A DNA stretch of 64,000 nt. It comes from Aliivibrio wodanis. GTDB lineage: Bacteria; Pseudomonadota; Gammaproteobacteria; Enterobacterales; Vibrionaceae. The notes beneath the pieces were generated by a model. That model did not search any database. It was not told the DNA's origin and saw only the letters and a program-made list of their open reading frames with translations. The stretch covers positions 1,798,001-1,862,000 of the forward strand of contig LN554846.1 of NCBI GenBank assembly GCA_000953695.1, read 5' to 3'. Positions 29,851 to 44,112 of this stretch are shown piece by piece. The position numbers were made by a program, and so were the translations under genes. The first letter of the stretch is position 1. Each line of letters begins with the position of its first letter.

Positions 29851-30483
29851 ATGAATTTTGACGTAAATGCTATTCCTTCTACCTTCGATTTAGGTCACAT
29901 CGTCCTATTCGGTACTTCTGCTTTATTCGTATTGCTTTTTGCGATGAAAAAAGGAAAAACGGTTGAAGTAGAAAAGATTGTTGAAATTGAAAAAGAAAAA
30001 ATCGTTGAAAAACCAGTTGAGAAGATTGTAGAAATCGAAAAAGTGGTTGAAGTAGAAAAGATCATCGAAAAAATTATTGAGGTAGAGCCAAAAGTAAAAG
30101 CCTCTACTCCTGAATCTGCTCTCCAGTTACTTTCTCTTCTACAAAAAGAAGCTCGTTTTATCGACTTTATGCAAGAAGATCTTAAAGGCTTTGCTGATGC
30201 TGAAGTTGGCGCTGCTGCTCGTGTTATTCATGAAGGTGGTCAAAAAGTATTATCTGAATACTTCACACTTGCACCAGTTCGTACTGAAGAAGAAGAATCT
30301 CGTTTATCAATCCCTGCAGGTTTTAATCCGTCAGAAATTCGCTTAACTGGTAATGTTATTGGTGAAGCACCATTTAACGGCACACTAATCCATCGTGGTT
30401 GGAAAGTGACAGAAATTAAACTTCCTAAGTTAGTAGATGGCTATGACGCAACAATCGTTGCCCCAGCAGAGGTAGAACTGTAA
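29851..30483 (+). CDS. DUF2760 protein with membrane anchor and coiled coil
   Basis: A 210-residue protein. One membrane helix (about 15-32, GHIVLFGTSALFVLLFAM) is followed by a charged repeat region (about 37-80) in which VEKIVEIEK-type units recur six or so times and should form a stiff coil. A conserved globular DUF2760 domain follows (ALQLLSLLQKEARFIDFMQE, GFNPSEIRLTGNVIGEAPFNG, HRGWKVTEIKLPKL). The helix has no cleavage site, so the domain probably stays anchored facing the cytoplasm. Its TAA overlaps the ATG of the Hsp70 gene by one base (TAATG), indicating coupled translation. Function is unknown; the coupling implies a joint role with the chaperones. Confidence 0.88.
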   Translation: MNFDVNAIPSTFDLGHIVLFGTSALFVLLFAMKKGKTVEVEKIVEIEKEKIVEKPVEKIVEIEKVVEVEKIIEKIIEVEPKVKASTPESALQLLSLLQKEARFIDFMQEDLKGFADAEVGAAARVIHEGGQKVLSEYFTLAPVRTEEEESRLSIPAGFNPSEIRLTGNVIGEAPFNGTLIHRGWKVTEIKLPKLVDGYDATIVAPAEVEL

Positions 30484-32303
30484 TGGAACAAGCTAAATTC
30501 AGCATTGGTATCGATTTAGGTACAACTCACTGTGTGCTTTCTTATGTTGATTTACATAATGAAGACGCAAGTGTTCAAGTTATGTCAATTCCTCAACTAA
30601 CTGCTCCTGGTCAAGTTGAAGAAAAATCACAGCTACCTTCATTTATGTATCAAGCACATGAAGCAGAGCTATTAGAAGGTGATACCACACTTCCTTGGAC
30701 AACAAAACCAAACGCGATTGTGGGTAACATTGCTCGTAACCTTGGCAGTAAAACCCCTATTCGTTTAATTGCTAGTGCAAAAAGCTGGTTGTGTCATGGT
30801 GGTGTAAATCGTCGAGAAGCATTTTTACCATTAAATAGTCCTGAAGAAGTGATTAAAGCGTCACCTCTTGAAGTGACTAAACGTTATTTAGAACACCTTC
30901 AGAATGCATGGGATTCTCAAAACCCTGAGCATCCTCTAAATGAACAAGACATTACAATTACGGTACCAGCATCATTTGATCCAGCGGCACGTGACTTAAC
31001 AGCAGAAGCGGCAAATAATCTTGGTTTCCGTAATTTAACACTATTAGAAGAGCCACAAGCAGCGGTTTATAGCTGGATTAAAAACAACGGCGATTCTTGG
31101 CGTGACCAAGTTTCTGTTGGTGATGTGATTTTAGTGGTTGATATTGGTGGCGGTACTACCGATTTATCATTAGTTGCAGTGACTGAAGAAGAAGGAAACT
31201 TGAGCCTAAACCGTGTTGCGGTAGGTGACCATATTCTTCTTGGCGGCGACAACATGGATTTGGCTCTGGCTTATCGTTTAAAGATGAAGCTAGCGCAAGA
31301 AGGTAAGCAACTTCAACCTTGGCAAATCCAAGTGATGACTCATGCTTGTCGTGATGCAAAAGAAGCCCTTCTTAACGATTCTGAATTACGCTCAGTTCCT
31401 ATTGTGGTTCCTAGCCGTGGGTCTAAATTGTTAGGTGGCACACTACAAACTGAATTAACTCAAGAAGAAGTTCAGCAAACATTGGTAGAAGGTTTCTTCC
31501 CTGTTGTTCCTGTTACTGAGCATCCAGTTCAATCTGCACGTGGCGCACTGACTCAAATGGGCCTACCTTATGCACAAGATGCAGCGGTAACTCGTCACCT
31601 TGCAAGCTTCTTAACTCGTCAACAAGCGGCGACTGATGAAGTATTTGGCCAACAAAACGAAGCTGATTTTATTAAGCCTACTGCGATTCTTTTAAACGGT
31701 GGCGTTCTAAAATCAAATCTTCTTTCTGAGCGTTTACTAGGTATTATTAATGACTGGTTAATTGATGCAGAAGCGGAAGATGCAAAACTACTTGAGGGGT
31801 TAGACCTTGACCTAGCCGTTGCTTCTGGCGCGTCTTACTACGGTTCTGTTCGCACAGGTAAAGGCGTTCGTATCCGCGGTGGTATCGCATCAAGCTATTA
31901 TGTAGGTATCGAAAGCTCTATGCCTGCTATTCCAGGAATGGAACCACCAATGGAAGCATTATGTGTTGCTCCATTTGGTATGGAAGAAGGCTCTCATGCT
32001 GATGTACCTAGTCAACAATTTGGTTTGGTGATTGGTCAACCTGTACAGTTTAAGTTCTATGGTTCTACCACTCGTCGTGATGATCAAGCAGGTACACACC
32101 TTGATTTCTGGATGCCAGAAGAGCTAGAAGAACTTCCTGAAATTCAAGTGACGCTTCCTGTTACTGACGGTCGCTCTGCAGGTGAAGTAGTTCCTGTTCG
32201 TTTAGCCTCTAAAGTGACTGAACTTGGTACACTTTACCTTGAAGCCATTGCTGCCGATAGCGGTGAGAAATGGCATGTAGAGTTTGATGTACGTGAAGCC
32301 TAA
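30483..32303 (+). CDS. Hsp70-family protein, first of a pair
   Basis: A 606-residue actin-like ATPase of the Hsp70 family. ATP-site motifs are GIDLGTTHCVLSY (phosphate 1, about 9-21), VVDIGGGTTDLSLVAV (phosphate 2, about 217-232), LGGDNMDLALAYRL and LLNGGVLKSNLLSERL (adenosine). After the ATPase domain there is only a short beta-rich region (about 465-606) and no helical lid or EEVD-like tail, so it is not a DnaK replacement. It overlaps the DUF2760 gene by 1 nt. A hairpin terminator follows at 32337, so the second Hsp70 gene may need read-through or its own promoter. Confidence 0.93.
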   Translation: MEQAKFSIGIDLGTTHCVLSYVDLHNEDASVQVMSIPQLTAPGQVEEKSQLPSFMYQAHEAELLEGDTTLPWTTKPNAIVGNIARNLGSKTPIRLIASAKSWLCHGGVNRREAFLPLNSPEEVIKASPLEVTKRYLEHLQNAWDSQNPEHPLNEQDITITVPASFDPAARDLTAEAANNLGFRNLTLLEEPQAAVYSWIKNNGDSWRDQVSVGDVILVVDIGGGTTDLSLVAVTEEEGNLSLNRVAVGDHILLGGDNMDLALAYRLKMKLAQEGKQLQPWQIQVMTHACRDAKEALLNDSELRSVPIVVPSRGSKLLGGTLQTELTQEEVQQTLVEGFFPVVPVTEHPVQSARGALTQMGLPYAQDAAVTRHLASFLTRQQAATDEVFGQQNEADFIKPTAILLNGGVLKSNLLSERLLGIINDWLIDAEAEDAKLLEGLDLDLAVASGASYYGSVRTGKGVRIRGGIASSYYVGIESSMPAIPGMEPPMEALCVAPFGMEEGSHADVPSQQFGLVIGQPVQFKFYGSTTRRDDQAGTHLDFWMPEELEELPEIQVTLPVTDGRSAGEVVPVRLASKVTELGTLYLEAIAADSGEKWHVEFDVREA

Positions 32304-32336
32304 TTTGGTTATTAATCTTCATTAATATGCTTCTTT

Positions 32337-32375
32337 AAGAGTTCAGTCACCGTTATAGGGGCTGAACTCTTTTAT
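32337..32375 (+). terminator. hairpin terminator between the two Hsp70 genes
   Basis: AAGAGTTCAG (32337-32346) pairs with CTGAACTCTT (32362-32371) around a 15-nt loop, followed by TTTATT. It could reduce rather than stop transcription into the next gene. Confidence 0.75.
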
Positions 32376-32437
32376 TATATGCCCCTACATTTTATCGCTG
32401 CCGCCTTCTCTTTTATTGCAGCTTCATTGGAGTTTTT

Positions 32438-35254
32438 ATGAGTTATTCTAATCGTTATTTAATTGGTATCGATCTCGGTACTACTCACACTGTTGTGGCT
32501 TATACTGATGTCTCTCTTGGTATTGAAACTAGTCCAATTGAGATCTTCAATATTGACCAATTAATTGGGCCGGGTGAAGTCGCTCGTAAACCTCTACTCC
32601 CTTCGTTTCGCTACCATGCGTCTCAAAGCCAGATCAGCGATAACGATTTAACCCTACCTTGGAATGTAAAAGCGATTGATGGCGAGATAAAGAATGCAAT
32701 CATTGGCGAATGGGCGCGTGAATTAGGCTCAAAAGTCGAAGGCCGTCAAGTCGTCAGTGCTAAGAGCTGGTTATCTCACACTAAAGTCGACCGCACTTCA
32801 GATATTCTACCTTGGGCTGGAGCAGAAGATGTTGAAAAAGTCTCCCCTATTGTTGCTAGTGCAAGTTATTTAAACCACGTTCGTCAGTCTTGGAATTACC
32901 ACCACCCTGATGCACCGATGGAACTGCAAGAAGTGGTTGTTACTGTTCCTGCTTCATTTGATGAAAGTGCTCGCTCATTTACTATTCAAGCAGCAAAACT
33001 GGCTGGTCTTGATAAAATAATTCTATTAGAAGAACCACAAGCAGTGTGTTATGACTGGTATCACCATCATCAAGATACTGCAAAAGACATTCTCAAAAAC
33101 GTACCACTAATGGTGGTGTGCGATGTTGGCGGTGGTACTACCGATCTAAGTTTAATCCAAGCACATTTTGATAAAGATGAATTATCACTTGATCGTATCG
33201 GTGTAGGTGATCACTTAATGCTTGGTGGTGACAACATTGATTTAGCGTTAGCACATTTAGCAGAACAACGCTTAAATAGCGGAAAAAAAATGACCGCTGC
33301 TGCATTAACTAAGCTAATTCAACAAACTCGTAAAACCAAAGAGCGTTTATTATCTGCTAATTCACCTGACTCTGGTCATATTACATTACTTGGTTCTGGT
33401 TCTAAATTACTCGGTAGCAGTCGTAAAGTTGAATTAACCAAACAAGAAGTACATGAAATTGCATTAGAAGGTTTTTTACCTCTAACCGATTTTGATGAGC
33501 GTCCTAATCAACGCCAAACCGCCGTCGTTGAATTTGGTCTTCCTTATGCTTCTGATCCTGCTATCAGTAAGCACTTAGCTCAATTTTTAGACAATCATAA
33601 AGAAGTTTCTACCAAAGCATTAGGTTGGGATCAACTTGATCTTGCAGATCATAATGATCGTGCGATACCTGTTGGCTTATTATTAAATGGCGGGGTATTT
33701 AATAGCCCGCTTCTGGCTGATCGCTCACTTGAGTTAATGAATAGCTGGAAAGGTGACACCGTAACCTTACTATCAAACCCTCATCCTGATTTAGCGGTTG
33801 CTTACGGTGCTGTCGCTTATGGTAAAGCTCGTCATGGTGCACAGCTTAAAATTGGTGGAGGCTCTGCTCGTTCATTCTATCTACAATTAGAAGAAAAAAA
33901 TAAACAGCCGCAAGGTCTATGTTTATTAGCAAAAGGCAGTGACGAAGGTGAAGAGATCCGCATGACAAGCCGTCGTTTTTCTTTAACATTAGGCGAACCA
34001 GTTCGATTCAACCTACTCTCAACGACAAAAGACCAACTTGCTACCTCAGGTATGATCACTGAATTAGCAGATCCAAGCTTTGTTAGCTTACCGCCTTATG
34101 TCGTTACACTTGAATCGAGTAAAGCTAAAGAAGAGTTACATGCAAACCAAAAAGATCGCGTAGAAGTCACGTTAGCTTGTCAATTCACCGAAGTAGGTAC
34201 AATTAAAATTGAATGTGTTTCCGTTGAAGACGATTCACAGCGTTGGTTAGTTGAATTTGAAGTGCGTAACCAGGCATCGAATAAAAGTACGAACTTAGCT
34301 GACCAAATCAGTTTACCTCCTCGCCTTCCTAATGCGATAGAAAATATTAAAGAAGCCTATGGCGGCAGTAAACAAAACCCTAATGCCATTAAAGCCTTCT
34401 CTAAGAACATCGAGAAGTTAATTGGTAAGCGAGAATCATGGGATTTAATTACCTCTCGTGAATTAGCTACTGCATTATTAGACAGTAAAAAACGTCGCCG
34501 TCGTTCAGAAAAACATGAACAGAATTGGTTAAAAATGACTGGTTTTGCACTACGTCCTGGTTTTGGCTACCCTGCTGACGAATGGAAAATTAGCCAAGCA
34601 TGGGAAACCTATCAACAAGGTATTCAATTTGAATCAAAGCAATCTTGGAATGATTGGTGGACATTCTGGCGTCGTATCTCAGGTGGTTTAAGCCAAGAGC
34701 AACAAGAGACTATTTTGGCTGATATTGCCAAGTATTTACACCCAGGTTCTTTACGTAACCCTAAGACTCTAGAAGATGCGACAAACAAAAGCTATGAAGC
34801 AATGGTACGTTTAGCGGCCGCTTTAGAGCATTTAGATGTCGAAGACAAAACTCTGATCTCAACGTGGGTGTTAGGTCATGCTAAAAGTGGAAATCAACCT
34901 CAAGTGCATTGGTGGGCTTTAGGTCGTATTTGTTCCCGCTCTCCATTCTATGGCAGTCAACATAACCTTATTCCGGCAAATCAAATTGCTCAGTGGCTAC
35001 CTACACTGCTAGAGCAAGATTGGAAAATACAACCAATGGCCGGTTTTGCCGCCGTAATGATGGCACGCCTTACTGGTGATAGAACTTTAGATGTTTCTGG
35101 CGAGTTGCGTGAGAGTATCATTGATAAACTAAAAAAGAGCCGATCACCACAAAGCTGGATTGAACTCGTCTCTAACCAACAAGCATTAACAGAAGCCGAC
35201 TCTAAGCGCTTGTTTGGTGACGCCTTACCGGCAGGGTTACGTTTAATAAATTAG
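32438..35254 (+). CDS. Hsp70-family protein with C-terminal DUF3731 domain
   Basis: A 938-residue relative of the preceding gene product. It has the same ATPase motifs (GIDLGTTHTVVAY, VVCDVGGGTTDLSLIQ at about 224-239, LGGDNIDLALAHLA, LLNGGVFNSPLLADRSL) and a short beta domain. It adds about 310 residues (from about 630) rich in tryptophan (FALRPGFGYPADEWKISQAW, SWNDWWTFWRRISGGLSQEQ, VHWWALGRICSRSPFYGS), the DUF3731 domain. No signal or membrane helix is present, so it acts in the cytoplasm. The ribosome site is GGAG, 8 nt from the ATG. The paralogy suggests gene duplication followed by domain gain. Confidence 0.92.
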   Translation: MSYSNRYLIGIDLGTTHTVVAYTDVSLGIETSPIEIFNIDQLIGPGEVARKPLLPSFRYHASQSQISDNDLTLPWNVKAIDGEIKNAIIGEWARELGSKVEGRQVVSAKSWLSHTKVDRTSDILPWAGAEDVEKVSPIVASASYLNHVRQSWNYHHPDAPMELQEVVVTVPASFDESARSFTIQAAKLAGLDKIILLEEPQAVCYDWYHHHQDTAKDILKNVPLMVVCDVGGGTTDLSLIQAHFDKDELSLDRIGVGDHLMLGGDNIDLALAHLAEQRLNSGKKMTAAALTKLIQQTRKTKERLLSANSPDSGHITLLGSGSKLLGSSRKVELTKQEVHEIALEGFLPLTDFDERPNQRQTAVVEFGLPYASDPAISKHLAQFLDNHKEVSTKALGWDQLDLADHNDRAIPVGLLLNGGVFNSPLLADRSLELMNSWKGDTVTLLSNPHPDLAVAYGAVAYGKARHGAQLKIGGGSARSFYLQLEEKNKQPQGLCLLAKGSDEGEEIRMTSRRFSLTLGEPVRFNLLSTTKDQLATSGMITELADPSFVSLPPYVVTLESSKAKEELHANQKDRVEVTLACQFTEVGTIKIECVSVEDDSQRWLVEFEVRNQASNKSTNLADQISLPPRLPNAIENIKEAYGGSKQNPNAIKAFSKNIEKLIGKRESWDLITSRELATALLDSKKRRRRSEKHEQNWLKMTGFALRPGFGYPADEWKISQAWETYQQGIQFESKQSWNDWWTFWRRISGGLSQEQQETILADIAKYLHPGSLRNPKTLEDATNKSYEAMVRLAAALEHLDVEDKTLISTWVLGHAKSGNQPQVHWWALGRICSRSPFYGSQHNLIPANQIAQWLPTLLEQDWKIQPMAGFAAVMMARLTGDRTLDVSGELRESIIDKLKKSRSPQSWIELVSNQQALTEADSKRLFGDALPAGLRLIN

Positions 35255-35760: not shown

Positions 35761-36234
35761 TTAACTTCTTGAACCTAACTTCACTTTACCTTTAGAATTA
35801 AACCATAAGGCTTGTGATTTCTTCTTACCTATTAAAATTGGTAAATCATCATAAAATAAGAAGTTTTTCCACGTCTTCTTAAATGTTCCCCAAGAAGTTT
35901 CAATTACATTGTATTTTTCATAACAAAAGTAGATGGTGACTTCATCAGCCCAATCAATGAACTCTAACACTTCTTCTGGTAATGATTCATTGTCACTATC
36001 CCAACGATGTTGCCAATCAATTTCATTACTCCATGAACTTTTTTTCATTGGCCATTCTTTTGAACCAAAATGATCAGCCGTTGGACTATTCGCACTGATA
36101 AAATCATTCCAAACCTGAGCAGACTTTGCCTGAGTGAATGGCTTAATTAATGGTAATACTTCATCATCAACTGGCATAGATTGATGAGTAAAAATCCATT
36201 TGCGATTGTATTCATCTAAAGGTAAATAACTCAT
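35761..36234 (-). CDS. DUF2947 family protein
   Basis: A 157-residue cytoplasmic protein rich in tryptophan, matching DUF2947: YLPLDEYNRKWIFTHQSMPV at the start, FGSKEWPMKKSSWS in the middle and TSWGTFKKTWKNFLFYDDLP near the end. No signal, membrane helix or catalytic motif is visible. Function is unknown. It is divergent from the CARF nuclease gene across a 243-bp gap, but nothing else ties the two together. Confidence 0.82.
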   Translation of the reverse strand: MSYLPLDEYNRKWIFTHQSMPVDDEVLPLIKPFTQAKSAQVWNDFISANSPTADHFGSKEWPMKKSSWSNEIDWQHRWDSDNESLPEEVLEFIDWADEVTIYFCYEKYNVIETSWGTFKKTWKNFLFYDDLPILIGKKKSQALWFNSKGKVKLGSRS

Positions 36235-36477
36235 AATTCTTCTGTATTTAAGGCATTTGATTCCATTCTATCGTCTTTTTTTATTAAGCCCAAATAAGAA
36301 TATTTAACAATGGGTTGATTTTTCTCATTAAGCCCCTCATTACAATAGTATCGAATAGAAAAACCATACCAATTCTGTAAGTAGGTATTGGATTAATATT
36401 CTCTTAAAATTATAATTATTTGGTTACACATGCCTTGAGCAACACTTATGTGTAATTATCATTACAAGGATTATTTC
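36235..36477. other. 243-bp divergent intergenic region before the CARF nuclease
   Basis: AT-rich sequence. It contains ATACCAATTCTGTAAGTA at 36366-36383, resembling the outer end of the palindromic repeats, and an inverted repeat TGTAAT-TATC-ATTACA at 36451-36466 ending just before the AAGGA ribosome site. The latter hairpin is in the leader and could affect translation of the nuclease. Confidence 0.4.
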
Positions 36478-37629
36478 ATGATCACTCATGTTGGCATATT
36501 AGATCAAGACCCCGTCCGTCTTATCACTCCCCTTCTTGATCTCTCCGTAAAAGGTGAGCACATGATTTTTATTGGCGATGACACTCAAAAGGATATGTTT
36601 CATCGTTTGGAAAAGATCCTCAAATATAAAGGTATTTCTTCAGATTTTTATGAAATCCCGAATATTGTAGATACGCATTTAATTAAAGAGTCTTTACAAG
36701 CACTTGCTTCTGAAATGAAACTTCACTTTAGTGATATCAAATTAAATGCAAGCTGCGGCCTTCGACATCGCCTCCTTTCTGCCTATGAAGTGTTTCGTTC
36801 ATATCATTGGCCAATTTTTGTTGTCGAACCGTTCAGCGATAAATTGTGTTGGTTATATCCAGATGGTCGCAAGCAAAAACACGTTGCAGATAATATTAAA
36901 CTAAGTGACTACCTTGCCATTTTTGGTGCTCGTTGTGAGTTCTCCGAAACAGAGCTACCTGAAAATATTGATAAGCGATTACGTGAGCTCTGCCAGCGCT
37001 GGGCAAGTAACGCATTAGAATTAGGCCCAGGTCTTGCTACACTTAATTACTTGGCAACAACATGTCGTAAAGAACAACGCTTAGATGTTGAAGTTACTGA
37101 AAAACAGCAAAGCTACAAAGAACTGAATATGCTGCTAACTGACTTAGTTGAAACTGGTTTGGCTACCTATGAAAACGGCACCTTAACTTTTGACTGCGAA
37201 GAAGCGCGACGCTTAGCTAACGGCGAATGGTTAGAGATTCTTGTTCACAATACCGTTGTTGATATTCAGCAATATTTACCTACGCTTCAAGATCACTCAT
37301 TGAATGTTCAAGTACATCGCGAAATTGGTGATAAAGACGTTCGTAACGAGCTTGATGTGGTCAGCATCGTCAACAACAAGCTGCATATCATTGAATGTAA
37401 GACCAAAGGTATGAGAGATGATGGTGATGATACTCTTTATAAATTAGAGTCATTACGTGATCTTCTCGGTGGTTTACAAGCACGAGCGATGTTGGTTAGC
37501 TTCCGCCCTTTACGTAATAATGACATTATGCGAGCACAAGATTTAGGGCTCGCGATTATTGGTCCTGATGAGTTAGGTGAACTTAAAAAGCATCTTTTAA
37601 ATTGGTTCTTAGCCGCTGGTGGCCATTAA
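36478..37629 (+). CDS. CARF-domain nuclease of the Card1 / VC1899 (DUF1887) family
   Basis: A 383-residue protein with the layout of V. cholerae VC1899 and Card1 nucleases. An N-terminal CARF Rossmann-like domain has the ring-nucleotide loop NASCGLRHRLLSAYEVF (from N90). A middle winged-helix region follows (ELNMLLTDLVETGLATYENG). A C-terminal PD-(D/E)xK nuclease has E291 and D293 in NELDVVSIV, then E306-C-K308 in HIIECKTKG. Card1 family members are switched on by cyclic oligoadenylate and cut single-stranded DNA and RNA. The start at 36478 has AAGGA 8 nt upstream; 10 more residues are open upstream without a ribosome site. No cas gene or CRISPR array is in the window, so its activator source is unknown. 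Confidence 0.9.
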   Translation: MITHVGILDQDPVRLITPLLDLSVKGEHMIFIGDDTQKDMFHRLEKILKYKGISSDFYEIPNIVDTHLIKESLQALASEMKLHFSDIKLNASCGLRHRLLSAYEVFRSYHWPIFVVEPFSDKLCWLYPDGRKQKHVADNIKLSDYLAIFGARCEFSETELPENIDKRLRELCQRWASNALELGPGLATLNYLATTCRKEQRLDVEVTEKQQSYKELNMLLTDLVETGLATYENGTLTFDCEEARRLANGEWLEILVHNTVVDIQQYLPTLQDHSLNVQVHREIGDKDVRNELDVVSIVNNKLHIIECKTKGMRDDGDDTLYKLESLRDLLGGLQARAMLVSFRPLRNNDIMRAQDLGLAIIGPDELGELKKHLLNWFLAAGGH

Positions 37630-37917: not shown

Positions 37918-38676
37918 TTATAGAAGATTACGAGCAGCTTCAATAACAACTTTGATTGAACGTGCTTCTGTTTCTTTTAATGTTGCGTGATCTGGTGTCT
38001 CTTTTTGAGTTCGGTTAATAATTACACCCGCAACACAACCCGCACGTAAGCCAGAGCTTGCACACATTGTTAATAATGTTGCTGATTCCATTTCAAAGTT
38101 AAGTACACCCATGTCTTGCCACTCTTGCATAGAACCTTGGAAACGCTTAACAACACGACCTGAGAACGTATCGTAACGTTCTTGACCTGGGTAGAAAGTA
38201 TCACTTGATGCTGTTACACCGGTGTGTACATTAGCACCTTGATCAACAACTGCTTTACGCATTGCTGTTGCAACATCAAAGTCAGCAACTGCTGGGAATT
38301 CCATTGGAGCAAAGTGAAGACTTGCGCCATCTAAACGCACAGAACCTGTTGTTACAATCATATCACCAACATTTACATGCGGTTGAATTGCACCCGTAGT
38401 ACCAACACGTAGGAAAGTACGAACACCAAGTTGAGCTAGCTCTTCAACTGCAATAGAAGTAGACGGACCACCAATACCTGTTGAACATACTACAATTTTC
38501 TTACCATCTAGTTCAGCCAGGTATACTGTGTATTCTCGGTGACTTGCTAGAAACTTAGGGTTTTCCATTTGCTCTGCGATTTTCTGAACACGTGCTGGAT
38601 CACCAGGGATGATCGCCATTTCTGCACCTTGAAGATCTGCTTGTGTTACGCCTAAATGGAATACTGCTGCTGTCAT
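37918..38676 (-). CDS. udp: uridine phosphorylase
   Basis: A 252-residue nucleoside phosphorylase nearly identical in pattern to E. coli Udp (253): [33 protein letters not shown] (phosphate loop), [39 protein letters not shown], the signature [18 protein letters not shown] and [20 protein letters not shown] (ribose-binding Met-Glu-Ser). It converts uridine and phosphate to uracil and ribose-1-phosphate in the cytoplasm for pyrimidine salvage. AGGAGTTAACC upstream gives a good ribosome site. It has its own terminator. Confidence 0.96.
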
Positions 38677-39040
38677 GGTTAACTCCTTGCGATTGTAGGG
38701 TCGCGTTAATTTAAATAGTTATATTTGATTCGATGAAGTTACTTTACCCAATCGATTCATTAATTAGTGTGATTAGGATCCCGAAAGGAATGTTGATAAG
38801 GTGCACTCTTGCAAAGAAAACCGATTGGCATCACAAAAATAAAGTAAGCCCCCCTCCCGTTTTTAAGTAAATCAAAAATGTTAGAGATTGTGGATGAATA
38901 GAAATTCCATCAAACCTTATTTAAAGGTCACGATGTTAATTATTTATTTCTAAGTTTTTTAACATAAGTTAATTGAATTGAATTATCACCTGTACTAAAT
39001 TATTACTAAATATCGATAAGCAGTGTTTAAGGATAAACAG
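38677..39040. other. 364-bp divergent intergenic region, udp to PKD lipoprotein
   Basis: AT-rich, with no frame or repeat of note. TTGAAT at 38973-38978 and TACTAA at 38993-38998 look like promoter hexamers for the lipoprotein but are spaced only 14 bp apart. The ribosome site AAGGAT is 8 nt before 39041. No clear CRP or CytR operator for udp was recognised. Confidence 0.5.
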
Positions 39041-42000
39041 ATGTTCAATAAAATAATATTATTAGGTTTCTCCATTGCTGCATTAGTTGGATGCAATGAT
39101 GATCACATTTCAATATCAGATGGAGGTACTTCTCCATCAAATACAGCTCCGACGGCGGTCATTTCCTCTTCATCCTCTAACGCCGTTGCCTCTATTCCCG
39201 TTTATTTTTTTTCGACATCTAGTGCTGATGCAGAAGGCGACGCCCTTACTTACCGTTGGCTAGTCACATCGAAACCAGCAAGTAGCCTACCGGCCCTGAC
39301 TCCAAACGGACAAAACTTAGAGGTGAACTTTGATGTTCCTGGAAGTTATACTATTCAGCTGAATGTTAGTGATGGTGAGTATGAAACTGTTACGACTCAA
39401 TCAATGACAGTGTTGAGCAATATACCGCCTTTAACTGGTTCGGAAACAGTTGTAGCTCAGGTAGGAAATAACCAAAAGGGCGTAATTGGTACGACTGTTT
39501 TTTTAGATGGTCATAATTCATATGATTCATTAGGTAACCCACTCACTTATTCATGGATTTTCACGCAAAGACCCGTGGGAAGCTCAGTTCAACTCTCTTC
39601 TGCCTCGGACGTATTCCCATCATTTACACCAGATATTGATGGCACTTATCTTGTTGAATTGACAGTCTCTTCTAACGGCATTACTAGTGTACCAACCACA
39701 ACTACGGTTGCAGTCGGCAACAATATAAACACACCACCTATAGCTAACGCCGGGCACGATATTGTTACTTCTGATTTTATAAATAACTCGAATGTTATCT
39801 TATTAGACGGTAGTCAATCACATGACTTAGATGGCGATGCATTAACATATCGTTGGGAAATCCACGATAAAGAGCCGGGAAGCAGCCCAATACTCGTTAA
39901 GGAAACCACCTCAAACCCAGCCCTTACGGTAGATGCAGTTGGCACTTATGAGCTGACTCTCGTGGTCTTTGATGGCAGCAACTACAGCCAAGTAGACAGC
40001 GTCACCGTTGAACAGCTTTCGGCAAATACTCCTGTGAATCACGCTCCTATTGCACATGCAGGCTTAGATCAAAAAAGTGCTGTAGTTAATGCGCAAGTAT
40101 CTTTAGATGGCAGTAAGTCGTCTGATATTGATGGTGATTCCCTTTCTTATAAGTGGCATATCAGTTCACAACCAGCATCGAGTAATGTTGCTCTTTCTGA
40201 TATAACAAGTGCAACTCCAACATTTACTCCAGTTGTAAACGGCACTTATGTATTTACATTGATTGTGAATGACGCGTCGTTAGACTCAACGCCTGATAGT
40301 GTGTCTATTCTCGTTGGGTCAACCACGAATGCTAACCATGTACCGCAAGTATCACTGTCAAACAATGCGAGTACTCACCCAGCCATCAATACCGCTGTAG
40401 ATTTCTTTGCTGTAGTGACAGACCAAGATGCTACTGATACTCACACATACCAATGGAGTATTGTAGGTTCCCCTCCAAGTAGTAATAGCACCATTAGTGG
40501 TAGTCATGGCGTGGGTAGCCTGACTCCAGATATCAGCGGAACTTATACAGTTCAAGTCATAGCGATAGATAGTAGTAGTGCTCCAAGTCAGCCAGCAACA
40601 AGCAGCATTACCGTTACAGCAATTACACCTCCTGTTGTGTTGCCCCCTACCCACAAGATTGGTTTGAATTCGACCCTCGGGGGGGGAGGTGGAGCCGGTG
40701 CTTTGTTTGCGATCGATGAGGATGCATTAAAATTAGGTAACGACATCACGGCGGCAAACAGCACGGTGGTATATAAATTTAGCGGTTTAACACCATTGGA
40801 GCAGAACCCATATCAGAAATTTACCTATAACCCGCATGACCAGAAATTTTATACTCAACTTGAAGCCAGTGGTTTGTTTGCTGACGGTTCTATTATCAGT
40901 TTTGATCCTGCAACAGATAAAATAGAAGTCGTTGCTCACGTCAAAGGTGGAACAGTCGATGGACACCATGTATATGGCTTCACTGGTAGCCCTACGGTAC
41001 ACCCCACCGGAAAATACCTGATTGCTAATTCTCGATTTGGCGGCAAGTACAATGCAGGTCGTGTGTACTTAGTTAACATCGACTCGACCGATAATGATTA
41101 TGGTGAAATATCTTGGGTATATGACCTTGGTTGTGGCAACGATAATAGCGGCGCAATAACAGAAAGTGGCTCTAACTGTACGCCAACAAAACTTGTCGGT
41201 TCAGATATGCTTTCCTACGCAGTGTGGGGTGATGGTGACGATGGGGTAGCAGGAACATCTGATGACCAAGTTGAATCTTATGCGCATGGAGACTTTCGCG
41301 CCGTTGGTGGGCTACCTGCACAACCTATCGACGGTCTGCCAACCACCTCTGGGTTATTACGTTTAAAACCTACCGATCCATTAGATTTAACGAAACGTTG
41401 GCAGTACGTCGCACCAAGTATCAATTTTGCAATGGAACTTCCAATCTTATCTTTTGCAAAGGGGCCGAACTCGCACTACATTACTCAACTATCTATGGGT
41501 GACAATGGCGGAACGCTATTTTCCGAAAATGGTGGCGGTGGTGATATCCAGTTTGGTTGTGAAAAACCATTAGGTGTTATTTACGACCCAATCCTCCATT
41601 ATAATGTTGGATTTTGCTCCGGAGATTCGATTCAATCACCAACGTTATATACTGGCGCATCGTCTTCTAGTATATCCGCAGTTCGCACTTTTCCGAATAA
41701 TCGGTCATTCACCGCTAAAGGGTTTGATTTAGGTAGTACCGGTTTTGGTGCGTTAGTGAATTATAATCATAGTGTGGCTAGTTACGTGATTCAGGGTCAA
41801 AAAAATGGACATTATCATAATATTCAATACGATCCAGCTGAAGTTCAATCCATAAACACAACAACAGGCAGTCAAACCACGGTTATTCAAGGTGACATTG
41901 CGAGGTCGTCTACGTTAGGGTCGTTATTTCTTGGCAGTGCTACTTCCGATGATTCAGGTAAGTATGTAGTCATTCTATCTTTAGATGGTGGAAATAAAAG

Positions 42001-43048
42001 CAACGGTTCTGTTTTGAAATATGATAGAGATACCGGCATAGTCACATCAACATCCTTTGGCTTTGACACTGTCGGTTATGTTTACGGAAAACCCTACAAA
42101 CATTCATCAAATGGTGAACTTTATACTGCTGCAATTTTTTCGAGTGATATGAGACATAACAAAGGGACACATATTCGATATGATGCCACTCATGGAGCTA
42201 AAGAAATTTTTGGTAATGGTCGTATTGAGCCTGGCATTACCTTTGTAGAAGCGGGTGCTAGCAATAATATTTACAGTATTGGTGTGGATATTTCTCAAGG
42301 GGACAAGCCATCAGTGCTATATGAGATTGATGCCACGAGTCATACATTTAAAAAACTCTTTAGCGCATCAAATAACAGCCAAGAAATATCGGACAAGGTG
42401 CTCTCTGTATCGTCTACAAATAGTGATGAGTTAGTCTTCGCTTTTGGTGATAGCGCAGAAAATAATGTGTACTGCTATGACTTAACTAATGTGGGTCCAG
42501 GATATACTCCGCCATTTGTTAGCTTAGAGAAAGGAATTAATCATGGTCTTCAAGGGGGGGGAGCTAACAATAATCCTCATGATGTTTACCGTGGCTTAAT
42601 GCACTCCAGTGACGGAGCTTGGTATTTCGTCGCAAATATGAATGGTGGTCAAAATGAGCCAACCATTCAGAAGCTGGATAACTGCTCTTCGATGACAATT
42701 ACTCATGTTGCTGATTTAAGCAATCAAGCTACGACAATGCCATTAGAAGTTGGTTCTAAAATATATATTGGTACTGGCGCTACACTTGTTGAGTTCGACA
42801 GCCCAATGGTTCAAGAACATACATTATCAATACCTAACTATCCCAACATCGAAATCCAAGGTTACCTGTCTGAATTGGATGGAGGCCTAGTTACAGGTGT
42901 TATTGAAGCAAAGGATGCATCAGGTAGCCAAGCGCATTTTGTGTTTACCTACGATCCCTCTCTAGGCACCAGCTCTTTCACTTACTCTAAATTAGACTCT
43001 CATATGCCGTTAGATTCGTTCTATCCAGGCGTGATTGAAATCGAATAG
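39041..43048 (+). CDS. large PKD-repeat surface lipoprotein
   Basis: A 1335-residue predicted lipoprotein. Its signal peptide ends in the lipobox ALVGC (C18), then NDD; the aspartate is at +3, not +2, so outer-membrane sorting is plausible. About five PKD/immunoglobulin-like repeats follow (up to about residue 530), each with a phrase like DGDALTYRW and GTYTIQL. A glycine-rich hinge (GGGGGAGA) leads to a long C-terminal beta domain with propeller-like strands (IISFDPATDKIEVVAHVKGG, GSVLKYDRDTGIVTSTSFGF, KPSVLYEIDATSHTFKKLFS). The start has AAGGAT 8 nt upstream; a GTG at 39023 is also open. Two eight-base G tracts lie inside the gene. The OmpA-like gene follows after 11 nt, so they form an operon. 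The ligand or adhesive role is unknown. Confidence 0.87.
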   Translation: MFNKIILLGFSIAALVGCNDDHISISDGGTSPSNTAPTAVISSSSSNAVASIPVYFFSTSSADAEGDALTYRWLVTSKPASSLPALTPNGQNLEVNFDVPGSYTIQLNVSDGEYETVTTQSMTVLSNIPPLTGSETVVAQVGNNQKGVIGTTVFLDGHNSYDSLGNPLTYSWIFTQRPVGSSVQLSSASDVFPSFTPDIDGTYLVELTVSSNGITSVPTTTTVAVGNNINTPPIANAGHDIVTSDFINNSNVILLDGSQSHDLDGDALTYRWEIHDKEPGSSPILVKETTSNPALTVDAVGTYELTLVVFDGSNYSQVDSVTVEQLSANTPVNHAPIAHAGLDQKSAVVNAQVSLDGSKSSDIDGDSLSYKWHISSQPASSNVALSDITSATPTFTPVVNGTYVFTLIVNDASLDSTPDSVSILVGSTTNANHVPQVSLSNNASTHPAINTAVDFFAVVTDQDATDTHTYQWSIVGSPPSSNSTISGSHGVGSLTPDISGTYTVQVIAIDSSSAPSQPATSSITVTAITPPVVLPPTHKIGLNSTLGGGGGAGALFAIDEDALKLGNDITAANSTVVYKFSGLTPLEQNPYQKFTYNPHDQKFYTQLEASGLFADGSIISFDPATDKIEVVAHVKGGTVDGHHVYGFTGSPTVHPTGKYLIANSRFGGKYNAGRVYLVNIDSTDNDYGEISWVYDLGCGNDNSGAITESGSNCTPTKLVGSDMLSYAVWGDGDDGVAGTSDDQVESYAHGDFRAVGGLPAQPIDGLPTTSGLLRLKPTDPLDLTKRWQYVAPSINFAMELPILSFAKGPNSHYITQLSMGDNGGTLFSENGGGGDIQFGCEKPLGVIYDPILHYNVGFCSGDSIQSPTLYTGASSSSISAVRTFPNNRSFTAKGFDLGSTGFGALVNYNHSVASYVIQGQKNGHYHNIQYDPAEVQSINTTTGSQTTVIQGDIARSSTLGSLFLGSATSDDSGKYVVILSLDGGNKSNGSVLKYDRDTGIVTSTSFGFDTVGYVYGKPYKHSSNGELYTAAIFSSDMRHNKGTHIRYDATHGAKEIFGNGRIEPGITFVEAGASNNIYSIGVDISQGDKPSVLYEIDATSHTFKKLFSASNNSQEISDKVLSVSSTNSDELVFAFGDSAENNVYCYDLTNVGPGYTPPFVSLEKGINHGLQGGGANNNPHDVYRGLMHSSDGAWYFVANMNGGQNEPTIQKLDNCSSMTITHVADLSNQATTMPLEVGSKIYIGTGATLVEFDSPMVQEHTLSIPNYPNIEIQGYLSELDGGLVTGVIEAKDASGSQAHFVFTYDPSLGTSSFTYSKLDSHMPLDSFYPGVIEIE
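40679..40686 (+). repeat. G8 tract inside the PKD lipoprotein gene
   Basis: Eight consecutive G (40679-40686) encode part of the glycine hinge (LGGGGGAGA) between the PKD repeats and the C-terminal domain. A one-base slip would shift the frame and remove the C-terminal domain. Confidence 0.9.
42554..42561 (+). repeat. second G8 tract inside the PKD lipoprotein gene
   Basis: Eight consecutive G (42554-42561) in the segment encoding GLQGGGANN, about 490 bp before the stop. Slippage here would truncate only the last 160 residues or so. Confidence 0.9.
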
Positions 43049-43059
43049 GGGTTGAAGAG

Positions 43060-44112
43060 ATGAACAAATCCATTGCTGTATTTTTGTCTCTCTATCCTGC
43101 ACTTGTTTGGGCAGATAAAGTATCAAAAACCTATGAATCAGAAAGTGTTACCGTAGATAACAGTACAGGGGCTTTTATTCGTGCAGATGTGGGGCAATCA
43201 TTTTATTTAGATGCTTGTCAGGACATGACTACCTGTATTGATGATCGGACTACTTGGGGGATTAGTGCGGGATATTTCTTTACATCTCAATGGGGAGCGG
43301 AATTAGGGTACTTTAATCTTGATGACTATCAATTTAAAAACGCACAAACACAAGAATATTTGATTGATGAAATAGAAACGTTAGATATACAGGGTATTTA
43401 CCGCTGGCACCTAGCACCTACCTTCACTTTAGATACGAAACTTGGTGTTGGCTTATGGCGCAGTGACTCTATAGGTTCAACGGGTACTTCATATGAGGCG
43501 GGTAGTCATAGTGGCGTATACCCTAAAGCAAGCGCCGCATTTAACTGGCATTTACGTTCTAACGTCATGTTAAGCACTGAATATGCTCATCGCTTTTCCC
43601 TTTCGGGGGATACCCGTGTTGGCACTCAGGGCAGTATTGATGTAGGTTCTCTCTATGTTGGAATAAGCTATGTCTTCGGCTCAAAGGTTTATCGTAAAGT
43701 AACTCACTATCAAGAAACCATTACTACTGACGTTATCATAAAAAATCGACAATCAAACCAAGAGTTGCCTTCCCCTATTACTATTGATAGCTCTAGTGCA
43801 GAGCTATTCAAAACGGGTTCGTCATCAATACGCGACACGACAGCATTGGATATGATTATTGTTCAATTAGGCAACGTAGATTTTCATTATATCACCGTAA
43901 TAGGTCATACAGACAACCAAGGTTCTCAGCAGACAAATAAAAAGTTGTCCTTAGCTAGGGCGCAGGCTGTCGCACAATATATCTCTGATCATGGAAAGAT
44001 TAGTTTAGATAGAGTTACCTCGATTGGCCTTGGTGATGCGCAACCTATAGGAGATAACGAGACAGAAGCAGGTAGGACTAAAAATAGGCGTGTAGAAGTT
44101 TTTATCAAGTAG
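43060..44112 (+). CDS. OmpA-like outer-membrane protein with peptidoglycan-binding domain
   Basis: A 350-residue protein with a signal peptide (MNKSIAVFLSLYPALVWA). A barrel-like N-terminal region (about 30-215) has strands such as GAFIRADVGQSFYLDA, TTWGISAGYFFTSQWGAELG, YPKASAAFNWHLRSNVMLST and SLYVGISYVFG. A C-terminal OmpA domain (about 240-350) carries VIGHTDNQGSQQTNKKLSLARAQ and GRTKNRRVEVFIK, the peptidoglycan-contact motifs. The two cysteines of ACQDMTTCID may form a disulfide. It lies 11 nt after the PKD lipoprotein gene, so the pair may make one cell-envelope structure, with this protein as anchor. Confidence 0.92.
   Translation: MNKSIAVFLSLYPALVWADKVSKTYESESVTVDNSTGAFIRADVGQSFYLDACQDMTTCIDDRTTWGISAGYFFTSQWGAELGYFNLDDYQFKNAQTQEYLIDEIETLDIQGIYRWHLAPTFTLDTKLGVGLWRSDSIGSTGTSYEAGSHSGVYPKASAAFNWHLRSNVMLSTEYAHRFSLSGDTRVGTQGSIDVGSLYVGISYVFGSKVYRKVTHYQETITTDVIIKNRQSNQELPSPITIDSSSAELFKTGSSSIRDTTALDMIIVQLGNVDFHYITVIGHTDNQGSQQTNKKLSLARAQAVAQYISDHGKISLDRVTSIGLGDAQPIGDNETEAGRTKNRRVEVFIK

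Follow-up and report, generated by a model that had tools for sequence, protein, structure and literature searches.

CARF domains are regarded as the parts of proteins that sense type III CRISPR messengers, and SAM-AMP is one such messenger (PMC10600005). The structure of Vibrio cholerae VC1899 (PDB 1XMX; DUF1887/PF09002) has been presented in print as an example of this domain (PMC4012209). The DUF1887 family includes members unlinked to CRISPR, among them Daci_4198, which lies in a Type VII secretion/Ter cluster with predicted DNA-transfer genes (PMC4012209), whereas the Vibrionaceae gene of the same Pfam family described here stands alone. Can2 (7BDV) and Card1 (6WXW) have a CARF plus PD-(D/E)xK architecture, which the present protein appears to share, and the same catalytic residues as it. 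Can2 is activated by cA4 and linked to type III systems, whereas VC1899 is neither (PMC7969007). In that report, VC1899 is called an orphan CARF protein unlinked to type III, in which the cA4-contact residues are not retained; it showed no nicking of supercoiled DNA in the presence of cA4, its RNase activity was weak and not regulated by cA4, and it was suggested to be a 'degenerate defence enzyme' cast adrift. According to an earlier paper, VC1899 had probably retained the main-chain contacts to cA4 (PMC6981274). The orphan status of VC1899 is not new here, as it was already stated in PMC7969007; what is new is the family-wide presence of the gene, the selection on it, the conservation of its pocket and its leader stem. 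No report of a CARF core gene in Vibrionaceae was found in the literature covered, which did not extend to the 2020 CARF classification paper, and for orphan CARF proteins no match was found for two of five phrasings combined.

The gene analysed here lies in a window of 64,000 nucleotides of the Aliivibrio wodanis genome (contig LN554846.1). The features of the gene and its surroundings, numbered from the first letter of the window, are as follows.

35761..36234, minus strand: gene for a DUF2947 protein (Pfam), the divergent upstream neighbour, outside the unit
36411..36416, plus strand: TATAAT, a possible -10 box directly upstream of the stem-loop, proposed by eye
36421..36458, plus strand: 5'-leader stem-loop, with arms 36421-36432 and 36447-36458 and loop 36433-36446
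36466..36470, plus strand: AAGGA, probable ribosome-binding site, assigned by eye
36478..37629, plus strand: gene for the VC1899-type CARF-PD(D/E)xK nuclease of 383 aa (translation, with profile and structure-sequence matches)
36478..36912, plus strand: probable CARF domain, residues 1-145, with loops D9-x-D11-P-x-R14 and N90-A-S-C-G-L-R96 (Pfam CARF_Card1 below cut-off)
37195..37614, plus strand: Card1-like PD-(D/E)xK endonuclease domain, residues 240-379 (Pfam PF09002), with E291, D293, E306 and K308
37918..38676, minus strand: gene for a uridine phosphorylase-type protein (PNP_UDP_1, Pfam), the convergent downstream neighbour, outside the unit

Translation bore out the gene coordinates of the preliminary description and the residues that it had named (NASCGLR at 90-96, E291, D293, E306, K308), and Pfam its DUF2947 and udp-type neighbours. 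The mechanical start of the open reading frame is at 36448; the start was taken at 36478 because orthologue alignments begin there, AAGGA precedes it, and 36448 falls inside the stem-loop. The protein scored 218 bits with Pfam Card1_endonuc (PF09002; cut-off 26.4), with E-x-D...E-x-K intact, 15.3 bits with CARF_Card1 (below the cut-off of 24.6) and 463 bits with the PADLOC profile CARF4--CARF_PDDEXK. It matched 1XMX over its full length (1-383, E = 8e-179), Can2 7bdv at E = 1e-28 and Card1 6wxw at E = 6e-10. VC1899 has the same loops and catalytic residues, with no essential difference between the two proteins. With this full-length match and its place in the tree group described below, the window gene is the Vibrionaceae family-wide orthologue of VC1899. 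Elsewhere in the window, positions 30483-35254 hold two adjoining genes of the Hsp70/DnaK type, of which the second carries a DUF3731 tail, and a gene for a 1341-aa PKD-domain protein, followed 11 bases on by an OmpA-family gene, occupies positions 39023-44112.

The nuclease gene was present in 322 of 329 Vibrionaceae genomes, covering 12 of 13 genera. The seven non-carriers comprise six small genomes of 1.0-3.1 Mb (G015, G020, G112, G125, G132 and G257, the last 65% complete) and one of 4.4 Mb (G014). An order-wide draw gave matches in 45 of 394 genomes, 34 of them Vibrionaceae and 11 others with at most 39% identity, and in a class-wide draw the endonuclease domain was found in 12 of 175 genomes, A. 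wodanis counted in. A search of 50,697 phage records gave no match, and one of 72,556 plasmid records a single weak match. In a tree of 54 rows the Vibrionaceae orthologues formed one 100/100 group, in which genera mostly fell together and some branches were long. Two genomes, G121 and G097, carry diverged second copies on contig 2 (L169 and L170, 57% and 36% identical) and keep the core copy; the second copy of G121 fell inside the family group and that of G097 outside it. At 80 named loci the neighbours were other chromosomal genes that differed by clade (most names were assigned by eye). In 62 of the 80 the commonest upstream gene shared the orientation of the nuclease gene, at a gap of 133-420 nt; the 70 residues tested of its 632-aa product matched no family, and we take it to be a chemotaxis protein. 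With this spacing and presumed identity, an operon with a defence gene was rejected, and the gene stands alone.

The gene is under backbone-level purifying selection, with a median dN/dS of 0.018 over 201 orthologue pairs (0.020 over 82 pairs) and values of 0.016-0.036 for eight neighbouring gene clusters. By part, dN/dS was 0.006 for the nuclease domain and 0.023 for the CARF domain (every fifth pair). The reading frame was broken in three of 35 genomes examined (G004, G099 and G296), so the gene is not indispensable; G029, G084, G183 and G322 each gave two matches, the better of them weak.

Conservation was assessed in an alignment of 140 sequences, 123 of them distinct (at least 56% identity and at least 375 aa), which takes in the second copy of G121 and leaves out the 45%-identical L171. 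E291, D293, E306 and K308 were invariant in all 123 distinct orthologues; the loss of nuclease residues that the preliminary description had raised as an objection to its own reading was thus not seen. Also invariant were D9, D11, P12, R14, L15, N90, A91, S92, G94, R96, H97, E117 and Q334. In the strand-1 and strand-4 loops, named as the lining of the pocket (PMC4012209) and delimited here by the analyst, 11 of 17 positions were invariant; the rest of the CARF domain had 15 invariant positions among 128 (P = 5e-6). Six of the nine CARF residues near modelled cA4 (PMC7969007) were at least 98% conserved, compared with 42 of 145 (P = 0.018), and four of the nine were invariant (P = 0.055); those below 98% were Q10, D34 (63%) and L95. 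On the mapping from PMC7969007, the Can2 contacts to cA4, Ser19, Thr42, Lys99 and Tyr118, correspond here to D9, D34, R96 and V115, of which the basic one alone is similar. As the invariant D9 occupies the place of the phosphate-binding Ser19, the CARF site, judged from the alignment, appears to be tightly constrained yet of a different chemistry from Can2. Conserved loops by themselves are no proof of a bound ligand. L171, the most diverged single-copy family member, keeps the catalytic residues and has changed H97 and E117; it comes from a 2.6-Mb Vibrionaceae genome (G035), where its gene lies near that of a TfoX-type competence regulator.

A 20-mer repeat test found no CRISPR-like array in the window, and a scan of seven neighbouring genes there found no cas gene. 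For the window, then, the earlier statement that CRISPR genes are absent from view is correct, and the gene lacks the adjacent type III genes that mark Can2-type linkage. The genome itself harbors a complete type I-F CRISPR-Cas locus (G000:C2:1058858-1069617; L192:59-10818) with Csy1-4, Cas3f and Cas1f, the single Cas1 of the genome, and an array on the same contig, C2, of at least 39 repeat copies with a period of about 60 bases. Type I-F systems produce no cyclic oligoadenylate. Profile searches of the whole A. wodanis genome gave no match to RAMP (PF03787) or to the SMODS cyclase, and hence no RAMP-bearing type III locus and no cyclase of the kind expected beside a CBASS-type effector. No match to SAVED was found in the genome either, a negative that carries little weight since the search gave no positive control match. 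The Cas10 palm2 model (PF22335) gave four weak matches in the genome (best E = 2.5e-6), which were taken for GGDEF proteins because the model passes its cut-off in E. coli too. As 226 of 329 Vibrionaceae genomes scored above the cut-off along with E. coli, palm2 was dropped as unspecific and RAMP chosen as the type III marker; palm2 matches of at least 99 bits occurred in seven of the 329 genomes, and some weaker ones lay close to RAMP genes.

Across the family, RAMP genes were found in 22 of 329 genomes, all of them carriers of the nuclease gene, which was also present in 300 of the 307 genomes without RAMP. A SMODS cyclase, the family to which the cyclase search was directed, was over cut-off in 24 of 329. 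The proposal that the ligand comes from a type III system elsewhere or from another cyclase is therefore not supported, both in this genome and against the 322 of 329 carriers. In four genomes looked at (G106, G036, G133 and G041) a separate diverged CARF4 nuclease lies near RAMP genes in addition to the core copy. Those of G106 and G036 (L172 and L174) are unusual in that NxSEGR takes the position of the GTK loop.

Relatives outside the core set were compared by their loops. Rows from RAMP-bearing genomes had Q or N at position 11 in 15 of 16 cases and mostly GTK-type loops, whereas the window protein has D-x-D-P and N-A-S-C-G-L-R. The nearest outside relative found, L159 (G422, 39% identical), resembles the window protein in its acid at position 11 and its NAS-x-G loop; its gene, unlike the window gene, adjoins those for Cas6, Cas7 III-D, Csx19 and a CARF-TM-like protein. 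This type III-D operon spans L159:9163-15721, with the gene for the 508-aa CARF-TM-like protein abutting the VC1899-like gene. The position of L159 beside it suggests a type III effector at the origin of the VC1899 branch, and the locus is possibly a living intermediate. The other acid rows outside the core set, L160-L163 and L169-L171, all come from genomes without RAMP and have NAS-x-G loops, but NTTTG in L163; L198 and L199, with GG-type loops, are exceptions from genomes without RAMP. In total, seven of eight acid rows were without RAMP and 15 of 17 other rows with it, in counts where related rows are not independent, RAMP is not always on the same contig, and L173, L194, L197 and L202 (stretch absent) and a G573 fragment are left out. 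L159 has the acid beside a type III-D operon, and so a strict rule linking an acid at position 11 to the absence of type III was rejected. The neighbour of L160 is a conjugation coupling protein, and that of L161 and L162 is EPSP synthase.

In 85 of 121 distinct leaders a stem finishes 11-21 nt upstream of the start; the same was true of 6.4% of 7,260 shuffles. It was present in 10/10 Aliivibrio and 73/93 Vibrio-group leaders, in 2/17 from other genera and in 0/1 second copy; the few outside the Vibrio group and Aliivibrio show that it is not family-wide. At the same named loci the stem was found in 64 of 77 leaders of the nuclease gene and in 16 of 269 leaders of neighbouring genes. The loops are 81% pyrimidine and 10 to 31 nt long, and the arms differ in both halves between Aliivibrio and Vibrio. 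In an alignment of 49 leaders, 48 of them selected for having the stem, both partners had changed in eight of nine pairs, and 85.5% of cells were paired, as against at most 43% when slid. An unselected alignment of 81 rows, in which the Aliivibrio arms are misaligned, gave 85.6% against at most 42% and a modest covariation (19 of 500 shuffles reached the score); its doubly changed pairs and pair types were no better than shuffles (121 and 184 of 500). Folding of the window leader was of unexceptional stability (z = -1.1), and a covariance search of the window found it at E = 5e-5 with a model whose training set includes it. Pairing of the loop with the ribosome site was rejected, as shuffled loops paired as well or better (mean -5.8 vs -4.9 kcal/mol). 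Rfam gave just two leader matches, both far under the gathering scores; among 81 leaders a strict LexA site was found in none, a loose one in one and a CRP pattern in none, and a consensus promoter scan picked no promoter at the TATAAT. The stem is taken as real in Vibrio and Aliivibrio.

The reading that we favour, and consider probable, is that the gene encodes a ligand-gated nuclease and is a domesticated, vertically inherited core gene whose ligand is other than cA4. The VC1899-type nuclease probably descended from a type III CRISPR ancillary effector, which fits the place of its nearest outside relative in a type III-D locus, and would then have entered the core genome. The protein is most likely a homodimer whose CARF pocket would bind a small non-cA4 ligand; binding would bring the two PD-(D/E)xK domains together and nucleic acid, probably RNA, would be cut with a divalent metal. 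Dimer formation and gating are suggested by Can2 and the published 1XMX comparison, and RNA as substrate by the published weak RNase of VC1899. As the core gene occurs mostly without a type III system, its signal is probably other than a type III messenger. We infer an endogenous ligand and a regulatory role of the stem, by which synthesis would probably be modulated in Vibrio and Aliivibrio; SAM-like, NAD-like and dinucleotide ligands are guesses from charge. A fuller version, rather doubtful as a whole, is that a CRISPR messenger receptor was domesticated at the root of Vibrionaceae into a housekeeping ligand-gated nuclease that senses a nucleotide of the cell itself, either non-anionic or bound to metal (a dinucleotide or a SAM-like or NAD-like compound), and that in Vibrio and Aliivibrio would govern its own production by binding its leader stem-loop or cutting it. 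The ligand-gated nuclease of the preliminary description is weakened by the near-inactivity and cA4-independent RNase of purified VC1899 (PMC7969007), which would also fit a non-enzymatic role.

The published suggestion that VC1899 is a defence enzyme adrift from its type III system and has lost its function draws on the same weak, cA4-independent RNase and the absence of DNA nicking (PMC7969007), and the frames broken in three of 35 genomes agree with it. A decaying gene would not show a dN/dS of about 0.02 like that of its neighbours, catalytic residues intact in 123/123 and presence in 322/329 genomes, and loss of function is highly improbable for the family. Another view, in which the protein is an auxiliary defence nuclease awaiting cyclic oligoadenylates in trans from transient mobile type III or CBASS systems, is unlikely, if less so. 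Vibrionaceae type III systems are frequently carried by mobile elements (PMC6360697), L159 shows that the branch can coexist with type III-D, and all 22 RAMP genomes carry the gene, though 300 of the 307 others do too. Type III, at 22 of 329, is too rare to explain the constraint in those 300 carriers, an invariant Asp stands where Can2 binds phosphate, and four genomes have a separate diverged CARF4 nuclease near their RAMP genes. The different stress response proposed in the preliminary description fits better than supply in trans, with no particular response having emerged. Gating by c-di-GMP or cGAMP, cyclic dinucleotides that contain guanine, would suit D9, D11, R14 and R96, as acidic and arginine residues are suited to guanine recognition, and the palm2 model, which also matches GGDEF proteins, has matches in 283 of 329 genomes. 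VC1899 does not appear in the accessible text on a V. cholerae ORFeome screen with 28 validated c-di-GMP binders (PMC4624772), a weak negative since many predicted binders escaped that screen, in which 3 of 11 RxxD GGDEF proteins were positive. Such gating is considered very unlikely.

For the leader, the inverted repeat could instead be a DNA operator for an ordinary repressor and not an RNA element, as its arms are symmetric, it would lie near the transcription start if the TATAAT is used, and covariation in the unselected alignment is modest. Against this, the loop varies from 10 to 31 nt and both arm halves change between Aliivibrio and Vibrio. Likewise, in a covariance search that scored 150 candidates per genome, the top match was the leader of the nuclease gene in G106 (E = 6.6e-12), G303 (2e-6) and G160 (0.017), the next best having E of 0.66 or more; the search missed the own leaders of the Aliivibrio genomes G000 and G002. 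An operator is considered somewhat unlikely.

The favoured reading, of a core ligand-gated nuclease with a ligand other than cA4, bears on how CARF proteins are understood. That a whole family keeps a CARF nuclease under strong selection, mostly without type III systems, means that CARF nucleases can act outside type III immunity. The published 'degenerate' view becomes directly testable, and another CARF signal may exist in Vibrio.
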